From the IMG/VR virus record IMGVR_UViG_3300006919_000090, positions 1-48,955 of that record: 48,955 nucleotides of DNA; one strand, given 5' to 3'. The number at the start of each line of letters is the position of its first letter. Within the stretch, counting starts at the first letter, position 1. The translations under genes and the position numbers were made by a program. Below are positions 124 through 48,955 of the stretch, in pieces. The DNA comes from a virus. Under the pieces are notes generated by a model that was given only the letters and a program-made list of their open reading frames with translations, made no database searches and was not told the origin of the DNA.

Positions 124-157
124 ACTCCAGTAAGTACACCATAGTCACGTAGCATTT

Positions 158-187
158 GGGGGAGGGGTCCAAACTCTCCCCCTTTTT
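158..187 (+). terminator. Rho-independent terminator
   Basis: The 7-bp stem GGGGGAG (158-164) pairs with CTCCCCC (176-182) around an 11-base loop and is followed directly by five T (183-187). It lies between the partial gene at 1-123 and the primase gene. Its left arm also contains TTTGG...CCAAA, resembling the dispersed palindrome seen elsewhere in this genome. Confidence 0.7.
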
Positions 188-208
188 AATCCTCTTAGAG
201 TATGTCAT

Positions 209-2742: not shown

Positions 2743-3175
2743 CAACGCAAATGCGATGGAACACAAAGAAAACGTTCGTGCTAAAATGCAACAAGCGTTA
2801 GCGTCGATTCTAACCGAACGTGAAATGGAGATTTACCAAATTATATCTACTGCGGTTAGCGAGAAAGACGATGCTATGCACCGGATGCACCAAAGTTATA
2901 CAGCCATAGCTCGCGGGGTAACTCCGTATCTAAGCGCGGCAGAGTTTGTCATCGTTTCCGCACAGATTGCTGCTATGTATCTTGAAGGTCTTAACGGAGA
3001 TAAAGAAGAGGAAGCACGCGCTTTGGTTGAAATGCCAGAAACGTTTAACAGTATCTTTAAGGCTAGTAGGATCATTAATGTTATTGTGGATGAAGAGTAT
3101 CCAGACGACGATGATATAGATGATACAGATTTGGGGCCATCCCAAAACGCACCAACAACCCTTACGAAACATTGA
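2735..3175 (+). CDS. Acidic-tailed helical protein, unknown function
   Basis: 146 residues from ATG 2735 (MPNNANAM), which overlaps the helicase stop by 8 bases and has GGAAG ahead. The longer frame from 2681 would lie deep in the helicase gene and has no ribosome site. The protein looks helical, with ILTEREMEIYQII in the first half and a strongly acidic stretch (EEYPDDDDIDDTD) near the C terminus. No known domain is recognised. Tight coupling to the helicase suggests a replication accessory role, by context only. A dispersed palindrome copy lies at its 3' end, read as LGPSQ. Confidence 0.65.
   Translation: MPNNANAMEHKENVRAKMQQALASILTEREMEIYQIISTAVSEKDDAMHRMHQSYTAIARGVTPYLSAAEFVIVSAQIAAMYLEGLNGDKEEEARALVEMPETFNSIFKASRIINVIVDEEYPDDDDIDDTDLGPSQNAPTTLTKH
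3130..3146. repeat. Dispersed palindrome, copy 2 (one arm position changed)
   Basis: TTTGGG-GCCAT-CCCAAA, 17 bp; the A of the consensus left arm is G here, so arms of 6 bp remain around a 5-bp centre. It ends 29 bases before the stop of the surrounding gene. Confidence 0.5.
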
Positions 3176-3182
3176 GGTTATT

Positions 3183-3368
3183 ATGCCTGATTATATGAAG
3201 CATGACGAATATGAGAAAAAGTCCAAAAACCACCCCATTAAAGAGCTAATTACGGCCTTCTTTGAGGATGGGAATAACCAGAAAGAGTATGTGCTCTACG
3301 TCTTACGCGATGTCTTCTATATGGTAGATGAGTACGTTGAAGCACTTGAAAATGAAGTGGAAGATTAA
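3183..3368 (+). CDS. 61-residue protein of unknown function
   Basis: Starts at ATG 3183 (MPDYMKHDEYEKK), with GAGG 6 bases ahead; an in-frame start at 3120 lies inside the upstream gene and lacks a ribosome site. The product is charged and probably helical, with an aromatic core segment YVLYVLRDVFYMVDEY that could be an interaction helix. There is no recognised domain. It lies between the helicase-linked gene and ThyX in one closely packed operon. Confidence 0.6.
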   Translation: MPDYMKHDEYEKKSKNHPIKELITAFFEDGNNQKEYVLYVLRDVFYMVDEYVEALENEVED

Positions 3369-4332: not shown

Positions 4333-4658
4333 AACCTATTACGCAACAAGTACAGCTACAGATGGATATTGAGTCTGAATTGAAAGATGATGGAACTATT
4401 TCAGTTCAGTTTTATCTACCGCAGTCTAGTTGCTGCGTCGGCTCTTATGTTATACATATTCCGGAACTGATTGAAGATTATGTGACGGCTCATGTATATG
4501 AACAGCACGGCATTGAATTGATACCAGATCATCATGCTGAACAGGTCTGGAAAACGTTAGCGCTTTTTGCTCGTACAATAGCAGCGGCCTGTCTAAAAGC
4601 AAACAATCGGGTAGAAAAAATCATAGACAGTACAGCAGATGACTTATCTAGTTCTTGA
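4329..4658 (+). CDS. 109-residue protein of unknown function
   Basis: Starts with GTG at 4329 overlapping the ThyX stop and ends 20 bases inside polA. The first half looks beta-rich (ISVQFYLPQSS, SYVIHIPELI) and the second half helical (AEQVWKTLALFARTIAAACL). There is a CC pair at residues 35-36. No family is recognised. Overlaps on both sides make it part of the thyX-polA operon. Confidence 0.6.
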   Translation: MKPITQQVQLQMDIESELKDDGTISVQFYLPQSSCCVGSYVIHIPELIEDYVTAHVYEQHGIELIPDHHAEQVWKTLALFARTIAAACLKANNRVEKIIDSTADDLSSS

Positions 4659-6693
4659 CGTAGAAAATACGATTACGGTACGGGATAAACGAAAGTTTCT
4701 CGATCCGTTCGAGCCAGACAACAAATTGGTATTGGTGGGTACATTGAGCCCTGCCAATACGGACTCGGACATTTTCAACTTTGGCCATAATGACCATTCA
4801 AAAGTCGTACATAAACCTAAAGACCTGCAAATTCAGCTCGATAATGCTGAGTATCTTGTAGGGCATCACATTGTTCATGATCTGTTATGGTTGTGGGCTT
4901 GTGGGTTCAAGTATGATGGTCCTGTTTGGGACACGATGGTTGCTGAACATGTCCTGTTGAAAGGCGTAAAGAAACCTCTTAATTTGGGTGCGTGTGGAGA
5001 ACGTCACCAATTATCTGTTATCAAAGACACTTTTATGTCTGACCAACTAAAAGCTGGTGTATCTGTAGCTGATATGCAGTATGATGAGCTAGTACGATAC
5101 CTTAAAGGCGATCTTGTATCTACAGGGCAGTTAATGGATAGCCAGAAGCGTCTGCTGGAATTGCCTGAAAACCAAAGCTTAAAAAGGGTGATTAGCTTAT
5201 CAAATAAGGTAACTCTTTGTATTGCCAGAATTGCATATAACGGCTTTGCTGTAGACAAAGACGCTCTTGAAAATATTAAAGAGGAATACCACAACGAATA
5301 CACTGAAAATCAGGAGTTTTTGCAGCGTATGGCGCAGGAGGTTATGGGAGACACTCCTGTAAATTTGGCTAGTCCGTTGCAGCTATCCAGCCTTTTGTAT
5401 TCTCGTAAACCTACAAACAGGATGGTATGGGCTTCTCTTTTTGAGCCCCGTATGTCTGACACAGAATACAGAAAGCTTCGCGATGCAAATACAGAGATCA
5501 TATTCCGTACCCGAGCCGTCCGGTGCCAGAACTGTCACGGTAAAGGTAAAATCAGGAAAGTACGAAAGGACGGAACATTCTTCAAGAATGAGACAAAATG
5601 TCCTATATGTTCCGGGGAAGGTGTACGTTATGTAGAAACGAATGAGAAAGCCGGTTTAGGGTTTATCCCACCAACTAAGAGTTGGGTAACTGCTAACGGG
5701 TTTTCTACCGATGCGACAACCCTTACTACGTTAATGCATATTGCGCAACGCGCTGGTAAAGAGCAGAGTTTACGGTTCTTACAAGCGCTTCAGCGTAATA
5801 ACGCAGTAAGTACGTATCTGTCCACATTTGTAGGAGGTATTGAACGGAATTGTAAGAAAGACGGTCTGTTACACGTAAATCTCAACCAGACTACCACTTC
5901 TACGGCACGGTTCAGCAGTTCTGATCCTAATATGCAGAACATGCCCCGTTTCGGGACCTTCCCAATTAAGCGAGCTTTTACGTCTCGTTTTAAGGGTGGT
6001 GTGGTAGCTGATTTAGATTTTGCTCAGTTGGAATTTCGTATTGCAGCTTTCCTATCACAAGACGTGTTAGCTATACACGAGATTGAGACAGGCTTTGATG
6101 TACATAGCCATACGTCAAAGGTTATCACTGAAGCAGGTGAGCAGACAAACAGGCAACAAGCAAAACCGCATACGTTTGCCCCATTGTACGGGGCGACAGG
6201 CTTTGGCCGATCTCCGGCTGTAGCAGCTTACTACAAGCATTTCATTGAGAAATACAAAGGAATAGCAGCATGGCATTCTCAATTAGCCCGTGAGGCATTG
6301 AATGTGGGCACGATTACCACACCTTCTGGACGACAGTACGACTTTTCTCACGTTATCCGTAAGGCCAATGGTGATCCTACGCACTTCACGCAGATCAAGA
6401 ACTATCCCGTACAGGGATTTGCTACGGGAGATATTGTCCCGTTAGTATTAGTATATCTACAGGATTATATGGACACCCACAACATGCAATCATATATCGT
6501 AAACAGTGTTCACGACTCAATCGTGCTGGACGTTCATCCGGATGATATTACGTCTATCCCACAAGTGCTTGCAGATATCAATGCGGACTTACAAAGCCTC
6601 ATTGATGAAGAGTGGGATTTGGATTTTAACGTGCCACTTTTGGTTGAAGGGAAGATCGGCAAAAATTGGCTTGACATGGAGGACATTTTGTGA
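4639..6693 (+). CDS. polA: Family A DNA polymerase with DnaJ-type zinc-finger insert
   Basis: The 684-residue replicative polymerase has an N-terminal 3'-5' exonuclease: Exo I is LDVEN (D7, E9), Exo II is GHHIVHDLLW, and Exo III is YLKGDLVSTG. Residues 296-328 hold two CxxCxGxG units (C296/C299, C321/C324), the repeat of the DnaJ central zinc domain. The polymerase domain follows: motif A DLDFAQLEFR (~457), motif B RQQAKPHTFAPLYG with Phe513 at the E. coli F762 position, and motif C SVHDS (~624). The insert lies in the thumb-to-palm region, after NLASPLQL and before the STDATTLTTL segment, not at the T7 thioredoxin-loop site. From memory, HMO-2011 polymerase has the same arrangement. All catalytic residues are present. 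Confidence 0.93.
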   Translation: MTYLVLDVENTITVRDKRKFLDPFEPDNKLVLVGTLSPANTDSDIFNFGHNDHSKVVHKPKDLQIQLDNAEYLVGHHIVHDLLWLWACGFKYDGPVWDTMVAEHVLLKGVKKPLNLGACGERHQLSVIKDTFMSDQLKAGVSVADMQYDELVRYLKGDLVSTGQLMDSQKRLLELPENQSLKRVISLSNKVTLCIARIAYNGFAVDKDALENIKEEYHNEYTENQEFLQRMAQEVMGDTPVNLASPLQLSSLLYSRKPTNRMVWASLFEPRMSDTEYRKLRDANTEIIFRTRAVRCQNCHGKGKIRKVRKDGTFFKNETKCPICSGEGVRYVETNEKAGLGFIPPTKSWVTANGFSTDATTLTTLMHIAQRAGKEQSLRFLQALQRNNAVSTYLSTFVGGIERNCKKDGLLHVNLNQTTTSTARFSSSDPNMQNMPRFGTFPIKRAFTSRFKGGVVADLDFAQLEFRIAAFLSQDVLAIHEIETGFDVHSHTSKVITEAGEQTNRQQAKPHTFAPLYGATGFGRSPAVAAYYKHFIEKYKGIAAWHSQLAREALNVGTITTPSGRQYDFSHVIRKANGDPTHFTQIKNYPVQGFATGDIVPLVLVYLQDYMDTHNMQSYIVNSVHDSIVLDVHPDDITSIPQVLADINADLQSLIDEEWDLDFNVPLLVEGKIGKNWLDMEDIL
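5950..5966. repeat. Dispersed palindrome, copy 3 (one mismatch)
   Basis: TTCGGGA-CCT-TCCCAAT inside polA; the core GGGA-N3-TCCC is intact, with one outer base (C for T) off consensus. It is read as F-G-T-F-P. Confidence 0.4.
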
Positions 6694-35647: not shown

Positions 35648-35675
35648 GTTATATGCGAATAATTTCAAATGTCAA
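35648..35675 (-). promoter_or_regulatory. Sigma-70 type promoter of the coat operon
   Basis: On the minus strand TTGACA (35675-35670), 16-bp spacer, TATAAC (35653-35648). It begins two bases after the scaffold stop. From the -35 through a few bases beyond the -10 it closely matches the promoter at 47842-47869: both are TTGACATTT, 13 bases, TATAACTATG. Confidence 0.8.
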
Positions 35676-36651: not shown

Positions 36652-39402
36652 TTATCGTGCGGCTAGTCCACGACGTTTTTCCCTGACACGCTTCTTAGTT
36701 TTTGTTTTAGAAGGGTGCTTTCGTTTTACGAAACCTCCCGTATTCCAGTCGCCGGCAGCGCCAGTATCCCCCTCTTCAGACCCACCAGCAGCTTGCCCTT
36801 CGTCAGCCCCTCCTGAATCGCCAGCACTATCACCGAAGCTTCCACCAAAGTCTGCCCCAAACGCTTCATCTTCTCCATAACCCCCCATGCTGCTCGGGCC
36901 TTCGGGACCGCCAAAACCACCAGTGTTATCGACAGAACTGCCACTGGACGCGGGACCAGCCGGAGCTACATCAGTAGCAATATCTTCCGCCGTCGTAGTG
37001 GTGCCGCGAGACGCAACATCTTCTGCGGTTGGAGCAGCCATACTATTATTGGTAGCCGTACCGGGGCCAGTATAACCGCCGAACACGTCTCCGTATGGAT
37101 CAGACTGTGCTAACGACTCGTTGTGTGCCGCCTGTTCTTGCGCATCCATCTCACTATAGGCTGCCGCTGTGGCAAGAGACGCATTAGCTTTGTTAGCTTC
37201 TGCTTGCGCAGCAGCCGCAATCGCACTATATCCCGCAATAGTTGCATCTATAGTATTGAGACTATTTCGACCGAACGGTTGAACATTCTGATCTTTGTTA
37301 TTTACAATAGAGACGCCACTACCATAAGGGTCAGGTCTGCCGACCGCAGTATGATTAGCGCCTACAACCCCATAGCTTTGCCCAACAGTCTGTTGTCCAG
37401 TTGTAGGATCAGTAAAAGACACAAGTCCGACACCTTGAGCGGCAAGACCATCAACATCAACACCAGAACGTATCGCATTAGTGTATGCATTCATCGTCGC
37501 TACCGTGCTAGCGGGCAAAGAGTCAACATACGATTGCATAGCTAAAGAATGTGCTCTTGCTGCTACTTGATCTTTACTAGCGAGACCGCGAATAGAGTCG
37601 AAACTAACAAGACCCAATTGTTCCATGCCGCGCTGTACTGCCGCCATACCTTTCGGCGCGGGGTTAATAGCATTCGCTATCATTGTGTCCATCAGTCCGA
37701 TGACGCTGCTCGGTACTTCGGTAAAACTGACGAGCGAGTCAACATTCACTTGAGACGGGATAGAGGACATCTCTGATACAGACATTCCCCCTGTTCCGCT
37801 ATTACTGTCACCGTCCGAACTGTCATCCAGCCAATTCGCAAATGTGTTAACACCACTTGCGTCTATAGCGGCATCTGCAGCATCGTCGGCTCCGTCGGCT
37901 GGCGGACGAAAACTAAACGCGTTATCACCTAATACACCGCCTGCTAAGTAGTTGAAATTTTCTTCGCCGAGAGATAGTCCCAAATCATCACGGGAGAAAG
38001 CGGGGTTATCCCGAAAACGCCCAGAAGTCTCATTACCGGCATTTGTAAAATCGGCTGTATCCTCATTTGCATTAACGTCGGCACCTGATGGCAGGCCCCA
38101 AATGTCTCGTAATACAGGGTTATTTGAAGACACAAAGGTGCCGTTCGCAGCGTGCAACTCTTCTGCTGCTTCCATATCGATATCTTCCAAACTGAACGGA
38201 AGTTCTTCTTGCGCACCCATTTCAGCTTGTGGAGCCGGGGCTTGCCCGCTAAACAGTTGATCAGGATCAGTAGCAGAGGTGCTGTTACCCATCTGCCCCA
38301 TCTCTTCCATACGAGCAAAGCCCTGTTTGGCTTCGTCTCGCAATTTCATGAAGAACTGTACACCGAAATATCGAACTACATCGGCAGGAACGACAAACTC
38401 GCCTTCGCTCAGCTTAGCGGGGATATCGTCACGTACTTCTTCAGGCTTAGCCCCTGTTGGAACCTGATTACCTGATATTGGGTCTACTTGATCGTCTATA
38501 GCCATACCCCCATCTGCAAATTGCTTTGGTGTCTTGTTTTTTTCTCTTGCAAAAGCTTCAAGTTGAGTAGTGGCGTCAAACAAATCATCTACAAAAGCTT
38601 CATAAAGCATTTCCACTGCTTCTAAACGGGATGAAGCCCTTTGTTGCTTTGTAGCCAATTGCGTCTCTTGATCTTTTGGCAATCCGCGCATCCACGTCCC
38701 AATAGCACTGATAAATTGCTCTTTTGCTATTTTGGCCTCGTCATCTGTAGAAGAGTTTTTTGTGCCCTCAACCAGCCCTCTAACGGCCCGTGCAGATTGT
38801 TGCCTACCCTCCGGTGTTGGGTTATTAAGATATGAACCGAGAAGAGCGTGCGCTATTGTTTTTTGAGGTAAACCTCTCTGATCTTTTAACTTTGCTATAA
38901 GAGGCTCCCAAACAACATGTTCAGTATTCGAGCCCACATTGCGTACTAGCAGATTTTGTAAAAGGGTGTTTTTAAAGGGATCAGCATTTGCTTTGCGCTC
39001 ACCAATAGCAGCAGAATTGCGCAGCCGTCTAATGGCTTTATGTCCGATTTCATGGACAAAAGTCTCCGCCTGTTTATCATACGGTCTACCAGCGCTTGTG
39101 TGTGTTAGTTCTATCCGATCATTACGCGGATGATATACTCCAGTAACACCTTCATATTTTGCTATTGGGGATTTGCTGGAGGCAGGTAAATACGCTACTT
39201 GCTCGTTTAATCGGCCTACTCCAGCGTCCTTTCGTGCTTCGGTGATCCCGTAATCATACAGTTCAGAGTCGCCGAGCATCTCTCCTGTAATTTCCATCTC
39301 ATCATCAGCCGTGTTGAGAAGCCACGGGACTTGTTCTTCGCGTTCCCGCTCTACTCTAGCTTCGGGACGTTCACGGGGAATAGGTAGCGTTTTGTCATCC
39401 AT
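36652..39402 (-). CDS. Large virion protein with HExxH metallopeptidase-like domain
   Basis: 916 residues. The N-terminal domain holds TGVYHPRNDRIEL and FVHEIGHKAIRRL, a zinc-protease HExxH motif (H117, E118, H121). A middle block (about 310-365) has the pattern DPISGNQVPTGAKPEEVRDD then LSEGEFVVPADVVRYFGVQFF, found in many marine phage proteins of unknown role. The rest is long, acidic and low-complexity (Gly, Ser, Ala, Asp), ending with a sharply basic tail (KRKHPSKTKTKKRVREKRR). It may process head or internal proteins or cut host envelope proteins; neither is shown. A third metal ligand cannot be assigned safely. It starts 8 bases inside the small gene that follows the portal. Confidence 0.65.
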   Translation of the reverse strand: MDDKTLPIPRERPEARVEREREEQVPWLLNTADDEMEITGEMLGDSELYDYGITEARKDAGVGRLNEQVAYLPASSKSPIAKYEGVTGVYHPRNDRIELTHTSAGRPYDKQAETFVHEIGHKAIRRLRNSAAIGERKANADPFKNTLLQNLLVRNVGSNTEHVVWEPLIAKLKDQRGLPQKTIAHALLGSYLNNPTPEGRQQSARAVRGLVEGTKNSSTDDEAKIAKEQFISAIGTWMRGLPKDQETQLATKQQRASSRLEAVEMLYEAFVDDLFDATTQLEAFAREKNKTPKQFADGGMAIDDQVDPISGNQVPTGAKPEEVRDDIPAKLSEGEFVVPADVVRYFGVQFFMKLRDEAKQGFARMEEMGQMGNSTSATDPDQLFSGQAPAPQAEMGAQEELPFSLEDIDMEAAEELHAANGTFVSSNNPVLRDIWGLPSGADVNANEDTADFTNAGNETSGRFRDNPAFSRDDLGLSLGEENFNYLAGGVLGDNAFSFRPPADGADDAADAAIDASGVNTFANWLDDSSDGDSNSGTGGMSVSEMSSIPSQVNVDSLVSFTEVPSSVIGLMDTMIANAINPAPKGMAAVQRGMEQLGLVSFDSIRGLASKDQVAARAHSLAMQSYVDSLPASTVATMNAYTNAIRSGVDVDGLAAQGVGLVSFTDPTTGQQTVGQSYGVVGANHTAVGRPDPYGSGVSIVNNKDQNVQPFGRNSLNTIDATIAGYSAIAAAAQAEANKANASLATAAAYSEMDAQEQAAHNESLAQSDPYGDVFGGYTGPGTATNNSMAAPTAEDVASRGTTTTAEDIATDVAPAGPASSGSSVDNTGGFGGPEGPSSMGGYGEDEAFGADFGGSFGDSAGDSGGADEGQAAGGSEEGDTGAAGDWNTGGFVKRKHPSKTKTKKRVREKRRGLAAR

Positions 39403-41713: not shown

Positions 41714-43285
41714 TTAGTATCCGAATGTTGCATCTACAGGCGTGTATTGCGCCGTATTATATTTACCGTCACCCCATGTTGCATGTCGCGGGCGGGTCAT
41801 TACACCGTACCGTAGTGCATCGTAAAGGTGATCTTCTGCATTTGTATCCACATCTTCAGGGTTCTTTTTATCAACCGGAATAGATGGGAGTTGGGCTACG
41901 GTGTTTGTGCAATTAGCAAAGAATGCAAGACGGGGCTTCTCAGTGAAGTCGTCTTTTTGTAGTCTACGATGAATTTCGTTCTTACTGGCCACACGGGCAC
42001 CTTTACTACGATCTGACGGCCTCCAGCGACACCCTTTAGCAATCATCTGTTCAGCAAGAGACGGGCCTGTATCCCCTCTATTATGCCAACACGAACTGTC
42101 TAAAACACCGTACCGTACAGGCCCGTCTTTCTCTTCGATCTGTAGGATCATATCAGCTAAATCAGTAGCCAACACTTTTTGCACATAAAGCTCTCTGTAC
42201 ACAATCAATTGGCCATCGGGAGCAACAGCAAACCATAAAACAGCAGAGTACGAGCCGTAGCCGTAGTCACAGGCCCTAAAGCGAGTCCAGTTTTGAGGAA
42301 TGTCAAACGGTTCAATGACGTGATCATACCTGTTAAATTCAGGGAATGCTGCCCCTTCTGCTATGTCCCAATCACCTTCTAGCAACTGCCGTCGTTGGTG
42401 TTCAGGCAAAGATAACAGGTTTGTTTCATACTCACCTGTATCATACAGATAAGGGTTATCCATAAGCTTAGCTGGAATAAACCGTCTTTTAAACAAAAAT
42501 TGACCGGCTCTGCTGTGCCCCGGCGGATATACCATCGGCTCTCCGGTCTCAATATCTGTAGCCCAAAAAGCTTTACCGTACGGGGCAGGGTCTACAAACA
42601 TCTTCTTGACCCATATATGTCCGGGGCCGCCCGGGTTGCTTGTAGCACGAAGATAGATTGGCATATTCGGATCAGTGGAACGCAGACGAGAACGCATATA
42701 GTTCCACGGGTACGGATTTGCCCACTGTGTCAATTCATCAAAGCCTACCCATGTAAACGCCTGTCCCTGATAACGTAGTACGTCATCTTCGCGGTCCAGA
42801 TAACTCATCCACAATCTACCGCCGTTTGGTACGGACCATTCCATCCGTTTCTCACTCCACTTGATGTTGGGAATGATTTGGGGATAGAGTTCGCGAGATT
42901 TGAAGACGAGCTCTCGCAATTCATCATTCGTGCGACGCAAAAGTAAACCGACAAACGACGGATTTTGTATATAACGTAGTGGATCCGCCAGCATAGCCAT
43001 ACTTTTACCGCCGCCAGCAGCCCCTCCGTACAACACTTCCCTTTCAGCAGCACTAAGAAAAGCTGTTTGTGGACCTATATTAGGCTTAAAGACTACATCT
43101 TCAACCTTATCCCAATTCGCCGCCTGTGCAGGAGTACGAATTTTAGATTTTGGCGAAGCGTTCCGCGTCTTTTTGGTGGAGGTCGAGCGTCCTTTCCGCG
43201 AACTTGCGCGCGAGACGGGCTTTTTCTTCTGCAATGCTTGCCCATTTGCGAAGTTGCGCAGAGTCGCGTCGTCGTCTGTGGCCAT
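41714..43285 (-). CDS. terL: Terminase large subunit
   Basis: 523 residues, the ATP-driven packaging motor. A Lys/Ser-rich N terminus is followed by Walker A GGAAGGGKS (87-95), Walker B FTWVGFDE (177-184) and coupling motif ATSNPGG (214-220). The nuclease domain shows ACDYG (D340), VLDSS (D396) and AEDHLYDALRYG near the end, the usual RNase H-type acidic triad. The start overlaps the upstream gene by 143 bases, an unusual length; a later start would still keep the ATPase, since the first ~60 residues have no motif. No intein or frameshift is seen. Confidence 0.93.
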   Translation of the reverse strand: MATDDDATLRNFANGQALQKKKPVSRASSRKGRSTSTKKTRNASPKSKIRTPAQAANWDKVEDVVFKPNIGPQTAFLSAAEREVLYGGAAGGGKSMAMLADPLRYIQNPSFVGLLLRRTNDELRELVFKSRELYPQIIPNIKWSEKRMEWSVPNGGRLWMSYLDREDDVLRYQGQAFTWVGFDELTQWANPYPWNYMRSRLRSTDPNMPIYLRATSNPGGPGHIWVKKMFVDPAPYGKAFWATDIETGEPMVYPPGHSRAGQFLFKRRFIPAKLMDNPYLYDTGEYETNLLSLPEHQRRQLLEGDWDIAEGAAFPEFNRYDHVIEPFDIPQNWTRFRACDYGYGSYSAVLWFAVAPDGQLIVYRELYVQKVLATDLADMILQIEEKDGPVRYGVLDSSCWHNRGDTGPSLAEQMIAKGCRWRPSDRSKGARVASKNEIHRRLQKDDFTEKPRLAFFANCTNTVAQLPSIPVDKKNPEDVDTNAEDHLYDALRYGVMTRPRHATWGDGKYNTAQYTPVDATFGY

Positions 43286-45020: not shown

Positions 45021-45232
45021 GACTGTTTATCCTCTTCCGCGCGGGCTGCTGCTGCTGGACTACAAGTCACAACATATGATTTAAGATTGCCAGCCTCAAT
45101 TTGTGCGTCCATCATTGGAACGACTTGTGAAGGCGGTGGGCAAGACGAAACAACAGCTACATCTCGACTTACCGTACCTTCAAAGTCTACCGTTAGCAAT
45201 ACAAAGACTAATACAGCCTCTTTAATAATCAT
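45017..45232 (-). CDS. 71-residue secreted or membrane-anchored small protein
   Basis: The N terminus MIIKEAVLVFVLLTVDFEG is a short hydrophobic segment, followed by VVSSCPPPSQVVP and a second Cys (VVTCSPAAAA). The Pro-rich segment after a Cys resembles small spanin subunits, but no lipobox is clear. It belongs to the lysis cluster and overlaps the HNH-like gene by four bases. Confidence 0.5.
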   Translation of the reverse strand: MIIKEAVLVFVLLTVDFEGTVSRDVAVVSSCPPPSQVVPMMDAQIEAGNLKSYVVTCSPAAAARAEEDKQS

Positions 45233-45483
45233 GTTTTTCGACCTTTAGTGGCAGGTTGTTTTTTCCGGTTAGTAGTCTTGTTAACCACTTTCAAATTTGA
45301 CCTGCGATTATCCATTGGATTGAGGTTTTTATGATCTACCTCTTTACCATCGCCCTTTCGAACACGACCTGCTTTTTCTAGTTCATACCGTGCTCTACCG
45401 CGAGACGCTCTCCGAGCCTTTTGTTTTGCTGTACCGTGATATTCATCATATTCTTCACGGTAATTTCGTTGTCGAGTTGCCAT
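45229..45483 (-). CDS. HNH-like endonuclease domain protein
   Basis: 84 residues, very basic. GKEVDHKNLNPMDNRRSNLKVVNKTTNRKK has the D-H, N and N spacing of the HNH core, with the last His replaced by an Asn form often seen in phage HNH-N proteins. There are no zinc-binding Cys pairs. It could be a packaging-linked nuclease (HNH genes often lie near terminase) or a small free-standing homing-type enzyme. Confidence 0.65.
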   Translation of the reverse strand: MATRQRNYREEYDEYHGTAKQKARRASRGRARYELEKAGRVRKGDGKEVDHKNLNPMDNRRSNLKVVNKTTNRKKQPATKGRKT

Positions 45484-47317: not shown

Positions 47318-47674
47318 CTATAGCATCTGCGATACGCGGCCTTCGGCCTTAAGATAGTCTAAAAGCGCGCGTCTAGCAGGTGAGTCTGACCTCTTGCTTT
47401 TGGTCACGTAGCCTCCTGCATTGTATTGTAACCGCTGCAGCTGTCGGGGTGTCGCCATCTCGAAGAACTGCATCATATCACCCGCTGTATAGCCGCGGGC
47501 ACTCATCATGTTATGAATACTCTTTAGTTCAGACGGAGACATATGACCGACGTTAGGGTGGTAGAAGCTAGCACCTTCACCGCCGCGACTATTCGCTTTC
47601 AGCGCATCCGTCAGACTTGTTGTCGGAGCCCGAAACCTTCCGCCCGACGTCACTCTTTTTTCTCTCGGCCTCAA
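47318..47674 (-). CDS. 118-residue basic protein of unknown function
   Basis: Starts MRPREKRVTSGGRF and contains HMSPSELKSIHNMMSARGYTAGDMMQFF, a helix-turn-helix-like stretch, and LQYNAGGYVTKSKR. It overlaps the upstream gene by 86 bases in another frame. It might be a regulator or a small virion protein; no family is recognised. Confidence 0.5.
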   Translation of the reverse strand: MRPREKRVTSGGRFRAPTTSLTDALKANSRGGEGASFYHPNVGHMSPSELKSIHNMMSARGYTAGDMMQFFEMATPRQLQRLQYNAGGYVTKSKRSDSPARRALLDYLKAEGRVSQML

Positions 47675-47840
47675 ATTCCGTTACTGCCTCTTGAATATGT
47701 TCCAATGAAAAATCCAAACCTTTCTCATACTTAAAAAAGGCCCGGATATAATAGATGTCGGACAAATAAAGGTGAAGGTCTTCAAGCTTGTTATTAACAG
47801 CGGCTTCGTAAAATTCGTCTAGTTTTGATTTTTCACGCAT
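47589..47840 (-). CDS. First gene of leftward unit, 83-residue helical protein
   Basis: Starts MREKSKLDEFYEAAVNN and is almost fully helical (LEDLHLYLSDIYYIRAFFKYEKGLDFSLEHIQEAVTEFEA). No known domain. The ATG lies one base from the -10 box of the promoter at 47842, so mRNA from that promoter would have little or no leader. mRNA from the stronger promoter at 48160 would have a leader of about 310 bases containing the 19-bp repeats. No standard ribosome site is present at usual spacing. Confidence 0.6.
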   Translation of the reverse strand: MREKSKLDEFYEAAVNNKLEDLHLYLSDIYYIRAFFKYEKGLDFSLEHIQEAVTEFEAERKKSDVGRKVSGSDNKSDGCAESE

Positions 47841-47841
47841 A

Positions 47842-47869
47842 GTTATAGCTAAAAATCCTAAAATGTCAA
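47842..47869 (-). promoter_or_regulatory. Sigma-70 type promoter at start of leftward unit
   Basis: On the minus strand TTGACA (47869-47864), 16-bp spacer, TATAAC (47847-47842), followed at once by TATG, the start codon of the first gene. TTGACATTT and TATAACTATG with equal spacing are shared with the coat promoter at 35648-35675. Confidence 0.7.
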
Positions 47870-47906
47870 ATCGGGGTTGAAAAGCTATGTCTAAGGCCCG
47901 TTTAAC

Positions 47907-48133
47907 TATATGATATCTCGTATCAGTCCTAAAACTCTTTAGGAGAAATACAGGATTTAATTAAGACAGATTTAATAATAACGATTAATTAAGTCCTATA
48001 TGATATCTCGTATCTGTCTGTTACGACATTGGCAAAACATTTTTTAATAGTTTAACTAGTGTCTTTTTATACCCATTTTTAATTAAATCTGTAATTAAAG
48101 CGCTTAATTAATCGATACGAGATATCATGTATC
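47907..48133. repeat. Repeat cluster in control region (possible origin or regulator sites)
   Basis: Two identical 19-bp direct repeats CTATATGATATCTCGTATC (47907-47925, 47996-48014) and an inverted copy at 48114-48132 that matches over GATACGAGATATCAT. Between and beside them are four TTAATTAA octamers (47957, 47985, 48079, 48104), and CGATTAATTAAG (47982-47993) recurs inverted at 48103-48114. The whole is A+T-rich. Spacing of 89 bases between direct copies. This fits iterons of an origin or binding sites of a regulator between the promoter at 48160 and the first gene. Confidence 0.75.
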
Positions 48134-48159
48134 TTAACGTTAGTTGTTATTATATATAC

Positions 48160-48188
48160 ATTATAGCACATGTCAAGCATGTTGTCAA
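48160..48188 (-). promoter_or_regulatory. Consensus leftward promoter
   Basis: On the minus strand TTGACA (48188-48183), 17-bp spacer, TATAAT (48165-48160) with TGTGC just before it (extended -10). A second TTGACA lies in the spacer (48176-48171). It is the best promoter in the control region and should drive the leftward late unit through the repeat cluster. TGTGCTATAA is shared with the helicase promoter. Confidence 0.85.
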
Positions 48189-48450
48189 GTGGGGCAGTAT
48201 GTCGCAATTTAACTTATTGTTTTTATTACATAAAATTATATAAAGGTTTCGTTATATAGTTGTTTTACGGTTTTGTTACCCGTAGGTCCCACCAGCCTGT
48301 ACCGCGCAGCAAAACTGCCACACTGCTAAGTGCGACATTATGTCCCATGGTCAAATTCCCCAAATTTTATGGAGAGGCTGAGAATAACCGGTTCCCCCCG
48401 TGGTGGCCCCTACCTGTACCCCCGTACCACACGTTCCGATAGACATACCA

Positions 48451-48485
48451 TAGTACCACATACTACTCTAGTACCACACACTACT
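48451..48485. repeat. Tandem 18-bp imperfect repeat
   Basis: TAGTACCACATACTACT (48451-48467) is followed by TAGTACCACACACTACT (48469-48485), one mismatch in 17. Further related words (CACTACTAT, CTACTATAT) follow to about 48532. Confidence 0.6.
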
Positions 48486-48900
48486 ATATGATGTGCCACT
48501 ACTATGTTATGCTACTATATATAGTTGTGCTATGGTCAATCAAAGGGTGTGCGAGGGCGAGATGGAGCTGCTACACAACTATTGAGAAACCACATTACGT
48601 TACCATATCCCATCGATTGTCTAGCCGAATGCCACCCATAGCAGTGAAGCCGCCAACACTAACAATGTTAGCCTACGCTAAACATATTTACATACGGGCT
48701 TCCAGTTCGTCTGAATAAAATCCTGCATATTTACGATACGTTCGCCAATGTGGTACTTTTTTTTAGAACGTTTGCGAACTCTTGCGCGTCGCTATCATGG
48801 CACGACAAAATCAGAGGCGCGGCTTCAGAGGGGCTGAAAACGTCTTAAATCCGCCGTACTCTAGTAACACGGCTAAACTATTGATTTTGTTGTGTTTATT

Positions 48901-48919
48901 TTTTGGGAGCCTCCCAAAA
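48901..48919. repeat. Dispersed palindrome, copy 9 (8-bp arms)
   Basis: TTTTGGGA-GCC-TCCCAAAA, arms the same as copy 5 at 12619. It is in the control region close to the right window edge. A T-rich stretch precedes it, but there is no T run after it on either strand that would make it a standard terminator. Confidence 0.7.
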
Positions 48920-48955
48920 TGTGACAGCACACTATGTTACCACACCTATCAGAGC

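Follow-up and report, generated by a model that had tools for sequence, protein, structure and literature searches.

What is the function of the cluster of short repeats that stands in front of the leftward genes of this viral contig? The preliminary description offered two answers, a replication origin or an array bound by a phage regulator that acts on RNA polymerase. We examined the cluster in the window (the whole stretch of DNA analyzed, a virus contig record of 48,955 bases) and the corresponding region in related phages.

The window represents part of the genome of a marine podophage of the HMO-2011 type, a group that PMC9038755 describes as dominant and widespread among ocean phages. 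Its rightward block encodes a primase, a DnaB-type helicase, a DNA polymerase A with a DnaJ zinc motif, and a ribonucleotide reductase, and its leftward block encodes the portal, terminase, and structural genes. The window was placed with HMO-2011-type phages because of its matches to members of the group in the portal region (71% DNA identity) and the terminase (at most 72% protein identity). It also has the features that define membership, namely, a DNA polymerase A with an embedded DnaJ zinc motif and syntenic primase, helicase, ribonucleotide reductase, portal, and terminase genes. The Pfam matches to DNA_pol_A and DnaJ_CXXCXGXG lie at 4639-6693, with the DnaJ_CXXCXGXG match below its cut-off. 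The early part of the rightward block appears to be missing from the contig, since the contig ends share no terminal overlap and the window is about 6 kb shorter than HMO-2011, in which early genes sit at the corresponding place. Two further elements of the window were recognized by eye. A strong G+C hairpin followed by T's (GGGGGAGGGGTCCAAACTCTCCCCCTTTTT; 155-195, plus strand) resembles a terminator just before the primase gene, and a small HNH-endonuclease-like protein is encoded at 45229-45483 (minus strand), with relatives in many HMO-2011-type contigs.

Between the leftward genes and the missing rightward genes lies a long noncoding region. Equivalent gaps between divergent blocks measure 0.5 to 1.5 kb in HMO-2011, CRP-1, CRP-2, CRP-9, CRP-13, CRP-207, CRP-345, and CRP-603. 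The features of this region and its first gene, read leftward, are as follows.

47841..48955, no strand assigned: long noncoding region between the leftward and (missing) rightward genes, recognized from the equivalent gaps in relatives
48149..48188, minus strand: P1, two overlapping perfect sigma-70 promoters directed leftward, from a promoter scan
48114..48131, minus strand: R3, inverted copy of the 18-19-bp repeat with the dyad GATA-TCTCG-TATC, from the sequence
48104..48111, no strand assigned: S4, TTAATTAA palindrome within CGATTAATTAAG
48079..48086, no strand assigned: S3, TTAATTAA palindrome
47996..48014, plus strand: R2, exact 19-bp repeat, from the sequence
47985..47992, no strand assigned: S2, TTAATTAA palindrome within CGATTAATTAAG
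47957..47964, no strand assigned: S1, TTAATTAA palindrome
47927..47944, no strand assigned: small inverted repeat of 7 bp, TCCTAAAACTCTTTAGGA, that can form a hairpin and lies between S1 and R1, from sequence reading and RNA folding
47906..47924, plus strand: R1, exact 19-bp repeat, from the sequence
47842..47869, minus strand: P2, TTGACA-N16-TATAAC, a second host-type promoter-like sequence before the first gene, from a genome-wide strict promoter scan and the sequence
47589..47840, minus strand: ORF1, the first leftward gene (83 amino acids), orthologue of a conserved gene of about 70 amino acids at the same place

The composition of the array agrees with the preliminary description. The R unit is the 19-mer CTATATGATATCTCGTATC, exact in both direct repeats (47906-47924 and 47996-48014); the inverted third copy (48114-48131) matches it at 17 of 18 bases, with an exact core of 15 bp; the four octamers are TTAATTAA, beginning at 47957, 47985, 48079, and 48104; and the inverted 12-mer is CGATTAATTAAG. 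The leader from 47841 to 48160 is 28% GC, and no gene lies between 47841 and 48955. The repeats are real and far above chance. Compared with 2,000 dinucleotide shuffles of the leader (47841-48160), the longest direct repeat was 19 versus at most 15, the longest inverted repeat was 15 versus at most 14, and TTAATTAA occurred four times versus never more than twice. All four copies of TTAATTAA in the whole window fall within the array, and the 48,955 bp of the record, searched with as many as three mismatches allowed, hold no R copies besides R1, R2, and R3 (0.04 in shuffles). Leftward, the order is R3-S4-S3, R2-S2-S1, R1. The R copies, two direct and one inverted, are 90 and about 117 bp apart, and the spacing of R and S words is irregular.

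The array sits between two promoter sequences, within the predicted 5' leader of the P1 transcript (47841-48160). P1 comprises two minus-strand matches at 12 of 12 positions, TTGACA-N17-TATAAT at 48188-48160 with a TG before the -10 box and TTGACA-N16-TATAAT at 48176-48149. RNA polymerase had been said to start at 48160; the promoter stands as a perfect sequence match, but that position is the end of a -10 box, and P1 transcription should begin about 7 to 18 bases beyond it. The operon was called late by inference from its gene content. P2, which was absent from the earlier account, bounds the array on the gene side. Predicted P2 starts fall inside ORF1, and therefore only P1 transcripts could carry the whole of ORF1.

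Both promoter sequences recur in relatives. Among 107 dereplicated upstream regions, the window being one of them, the predicted P1 is nearly universal: 82 have a promoter of at least 11/12 at 80 to 420 bp before the orthologous gene, and most of the others have TTGACA with TAAAAC. Sequence farther upstream, 43.7 kb in all, had zero promoters of this quality, and the opposite strand had two. At P2, which overlaps or adjoins the gene start, TTGACA occurs in the 14 nucleotides before the ATG in 91 of the 107 regions, and ORF1 codons 6 to 8 (GTA-AAA-CTA) are invariant in all 74 orthologues compared. The latter supports P2 as a DNA element because such codons vary elsewhere in the gene (GTA, 56%; CTA, 8%). 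Strict sigma-70-type promoters are also found at 35675 (minus strand) and 6671 (plus strand) in the window, at 37617 (minus strand) in HMO-2011, and at 42295 (minus strand) and 12686 (plus strand) in CRP-2; in various members such promoters recur ahead of the coat gene and where the DNA polymerase gene ends.

ORF1 provides the anchor for comparing leaders. Its orthologues occupy the same place in HMO-2011, CRP-1, CRP-2, CRP-9, CRP-207, CRP-345, CRP-603, and hundreds of viral contigs. A search with the ORF1 of the window alone returned no relatives; an alignment search did recover them, none closer than about 45% identity, and therefore there was no close relative with the same words to compare. 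Within bacterial genomes, no prophage bearing this leader was found, and a search for prophages with ORF1 yielded just five MAG contigs, which resemble binned phage sequence.

Repeat arrays with words of their own occupy the same place in about a hundred relatives, forming a class defined in this analysis, the promoter-leader repeat array of HMO-2011-type phages. In the P1-to-gene leaders of 80 relatives, direct repeats had a median z of 4.15, with z > 3 in 66%, versus a median z of 0.05 and z > 3 in 6% for segments of equal length just upstream of P1. A 12-bp palindrome, ACACTTAAGTGT, accounts for 138 sites in 61 dereplicated leaders compared to 9.5 in shuffles. Its sites are paired at a pitch of 12 to 13 bp, and the pairs recur every 44 to 45 bp; counted from the -10 box, they lie at about +17/+29, +62/+74, and +106/+118. 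Sites of at least 10 bits occur at 6.4 per kb in the 300 nucleotides before the gene and at 0.09 per kb in the rest of the loci fetched, a difference of about 70-fold, and the three strongest sites of the HMO-2011 genome are all in its leader. Most relatives use ACACTTAAGTGT, and others, including the window, use different words at the same place; the position weight matrix of ACACTTAAGTGT has no match in the leaders of the window, CRP-2, CRP-9, or CRP-13. In CRP-1, CRP-2, CRP-13, CRP-345, and CRP-603, another operator-like family, made up of TTGTGATCACAA-type palindromes in one to four copies, occupies the rightward-gene side of the gap.

The window shares with the group a near-consensus P1, a repeat-rich leader, and a TTGACA promoter at the orthologous first gene. 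Its R3 begins about 29 nucleotides past the P1 -10 box, where relatives have their first site pair, and the window lacks the ACACTTAAGTGT-type layout of pairs at 12 to 13 bp repeated every 44 to 45 bp. No relative was found with an array of the R and S words of the window; across 2.9 million viral contigs, the 15-bp R core was matched exactly 32 times, always singly and never as an array; and comparing the gap with phage records by DNA similarity gave chance matches only. The preliminary description had made conservation of the repeat arrangement in relatives a touchstone; position and promoter are conserved, and sequence is not.

We regard a promoter-linked operator array for a phage regulator, in the leader between P1 and P2, as somewhat the better bet for this locus. 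The proposal of a regulator array acting on RNA polymerase gains indirect support, in that relatives keep an array in the same promoter-leader position. Most likely, a phage-encoded DNA-binding protein would bind the palindromic words and, when bound just past the P1 start, would block or throttle P1 transcription; it might also set P2 use or the balance between P1 and P2. Activation of P2 is conceivable as well, as the coordinates of the window place the predicted P2 start about 80 bp past the center of R1. The leftward gene block would be switched on or off as a result, setting the timing of infection or, in integrase-carrying members, controlling lysogeny. The repeats, the promoter sequences, the conserved position in relatives, the restriction to the leader, and the lineage-specific words are observed; protein binding, the effect on RNA polymerase, and biological timing we infer. 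Operators usually overlap or precede the promoter, and we counted the position of the window array downstream of P1 against the operator reading, along with the irregular spacing and unshared words of the window and the scans for a regulator described below. Lysogeny control is considered as one use because some HMO-2011-type phages carry an integrase and integration has been demonstrated for CRP-3 (PMC6918029).

The binding protein is more likely to be phage encoded than a host protein, since the words differ within one host strain yet are shared across hosts. For example, CRP-1, CRP-2, CRP-9, and CRP-13 infect the single host strain FZCC0023 and have different words, and HMO-2011, a SAR116 phage, shares the CRP-1 type of word. 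Scans of the early genes of HMO-2011 (Pfam and PHROGs) and CRP-1 (Pfam) gave no convincing regulator, with a weak HTH match inside a DUF7178 protein of CRP-1, and a gene comparison between phages with the same and with different words singled out no regulator. Early genes at 1550-1951 and 433-1182 in HMO-2011 and at 2783-3190 in CRP-1 have as their kin gp82 of mycobacteriophage L5 and the gp88 family. Of the two helix-turn-helix-like proteins suggested for binding tests in the preliminary description, the one at 43143 comes from a conserved gene flanked by the terminase genes and matches no Pfam family significantly, the one at 47318 has no relatives in the loci fetched, and a DNA-binding role was shown for neither. 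ORF1 is a candidate binding protein by position only; its AlphaFold models are low-confidence three-helix structures (pLDDT, 67 and 63), and the window ORF1 model had no fold match.

A replication origin, with the repeats as initiator iterons, the AT-rich leader as an unwinding zone, and perhaps the P1 transcript as primer (R-loop type), is the alternative with most to recommend it, although we consider it unlikely. A repeat-bearing leader of 28% GC adjoins a strong promoter, the region separates two gene blocks, the cumulative GC-skew minimum falls in the same noncoding gap, and word-switching among relatives would fit a coevolving initiator too. However, that minimum lies about 0.75 to 0.85 kb upstream of P1 in HMO-2011, CRP-2, and the window, so that the skew profile proposed as a check places it outside the array in all three genomes and lends an origin no support. 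The skew also tracks gene orientation, with no fork-related flip within the leftward block, and for both reasons it provides no independent origin signal. The R copies are few, point in different directions, and lie 90 and about 117 bp from one another, unlike iterons, which are tandem repeats of one orientation with regular helical spacing; in relatives, the sites are locked to the promoter, and no initiator is known. Moreover, a separate conserved element upstream of P1 is an equally good candidate. It consists of ACACAGATCAGGAAAA in 85 of the 107 regions (e.g., about 330 to 375 bp before the gene in CRP-1) followed by TTAACCACA; in 78 of the 107, a word there differs from the DnaA box TTATCCACA by no more than one base. 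This element, a possible origin, is absent from the window.

Control at the RNA level, in which R1 or R2 forms about 16 bp of pairing with R3 in the leader transcript and alternative structures govern elongation or translation of ORF1, seems improbable to us. R3 is able to form either pairing and the leader RNA of the window folds better than shuffles (z of -4.7), but such folding is expected from any array of DNA palindromes. The antisense strand of the window folds better than the sense strand, and in relatives the two fold about equally (median z of -2.4 for sense versus -2.1 for antisense). At the commonest asymmetric site, the transcribed strand has the C.A mismatch at 29 sites versus the RNA-compatible U.G at 4. 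A known structured RNA leader was rejected, as no Rfam family reached its gathering score and the only sub-threshold match was on the other strand. We give still less credence to an array for a host regulator such as CtrA (TTAA-N7-TTAA), of the kind described in the divergent-gene gap of vB_BsubS-Delta. The array has many TTAA words, the known hosts of the HMO-2011-type group are Alphaproteobacteria, and an array of this type has been reported in the gap region of an alphaproteobacterial phage (PMC9437464). Nevertheless, the window leader holds one TTAA-N7-TTAA, as do 8% of shuffles, rather than the multiple sites of a CtrA array, which was accordingly rejected; relatives do not prefer N7 (14, versus 35 for N10 and 28 for N9), and the words vary among phages of one host strain. 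That the repeats are duplication remnants in noncoding DNA without a specific function is the least credible account. The words of the window are not conserved outside the window phage, but repeats are enriched in the same leader of dozens of distinct relatives and absent just upstream, and in relatives the pitch is fixed.

More tentatively, the operator reading may extend to a shared switch of HMO-2011-type phages, in which a phage protein reads lineage-specific palindrome arrays (mostly paired sites repeated at 44 to 45 bp) set in the transcribed leader between the two host promoters, and the window carries a divergent two-word version. Its specificity would then shift fast from one relative to another, much as immunity or timing switches do. 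The group-wide pattern is more informative than the window phage, a divergent example. Keyword searches of papers on the group (PMC9038755, PMC6918029, and PMC8528129) returned passages with no mention of promoters, of this region, or of gene control in these phages. If the array is an operator, it offers a defined DNA bait for finding the regulator, predicts which phages cross-regulate or exclude each other, and allows tests of whether integrase-carrying members use it for lysogeny.

Temperate phages are known for multipartite repressor operators of the lambda OL/OR type. As in those, several dyad-symmetric sites stand beside a strong host-type promoter and the words differ among related phages. 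Unlike those, the sites here lie downstream of P1 in the transcribed leader, form regular pairs in relatives and two word types in the window, and come without a known repressor gene, and binding is predicted from sequence. The stoperators of Cluster A mycobacteriophages (PMC9283540 and PMC6550527) are likewise repeated repressor sites able to act on elongating polymerase, but they are asymmetric and genome-wide, whereas the sites here are palindromic and confined to one leader. A stoperator system was rejected: R and TTAATTAA of the window are leader-only, and the sites of relatives are about 70-fold leader enriched. The CtrA arrays of alphaproteobacterial phages (PMC9437464) resemble this locus in their TTAA-rich repeats within a long gap between divergent blocks and differ from it in the TTAA-N7-TTAA rule and in the switching of words within one host strain seen here. 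Iteron origins of the lambda and plasmid types share repeats of about 19 bp adjoining AT-rich DNA, whereas here a few R copies of mixed orientation and uneven spacing are bound to a promoter leader, with no initiator. Other HMO-2011-type phages (PMC9038755, PMC6918029, and PMC8528129) agree with the window in gene layout, in a DNA polymerase that contains DnaJ, and in an orthologous first leftward gene with its promoter leader, although the repeat words of the window are its own. Operator arrays beside phage promoters are of an already known kind; what is new here is that the array lies in a leader flanked by two promoters, that relatives arrange their sites in regular pairs, and that the words switch.
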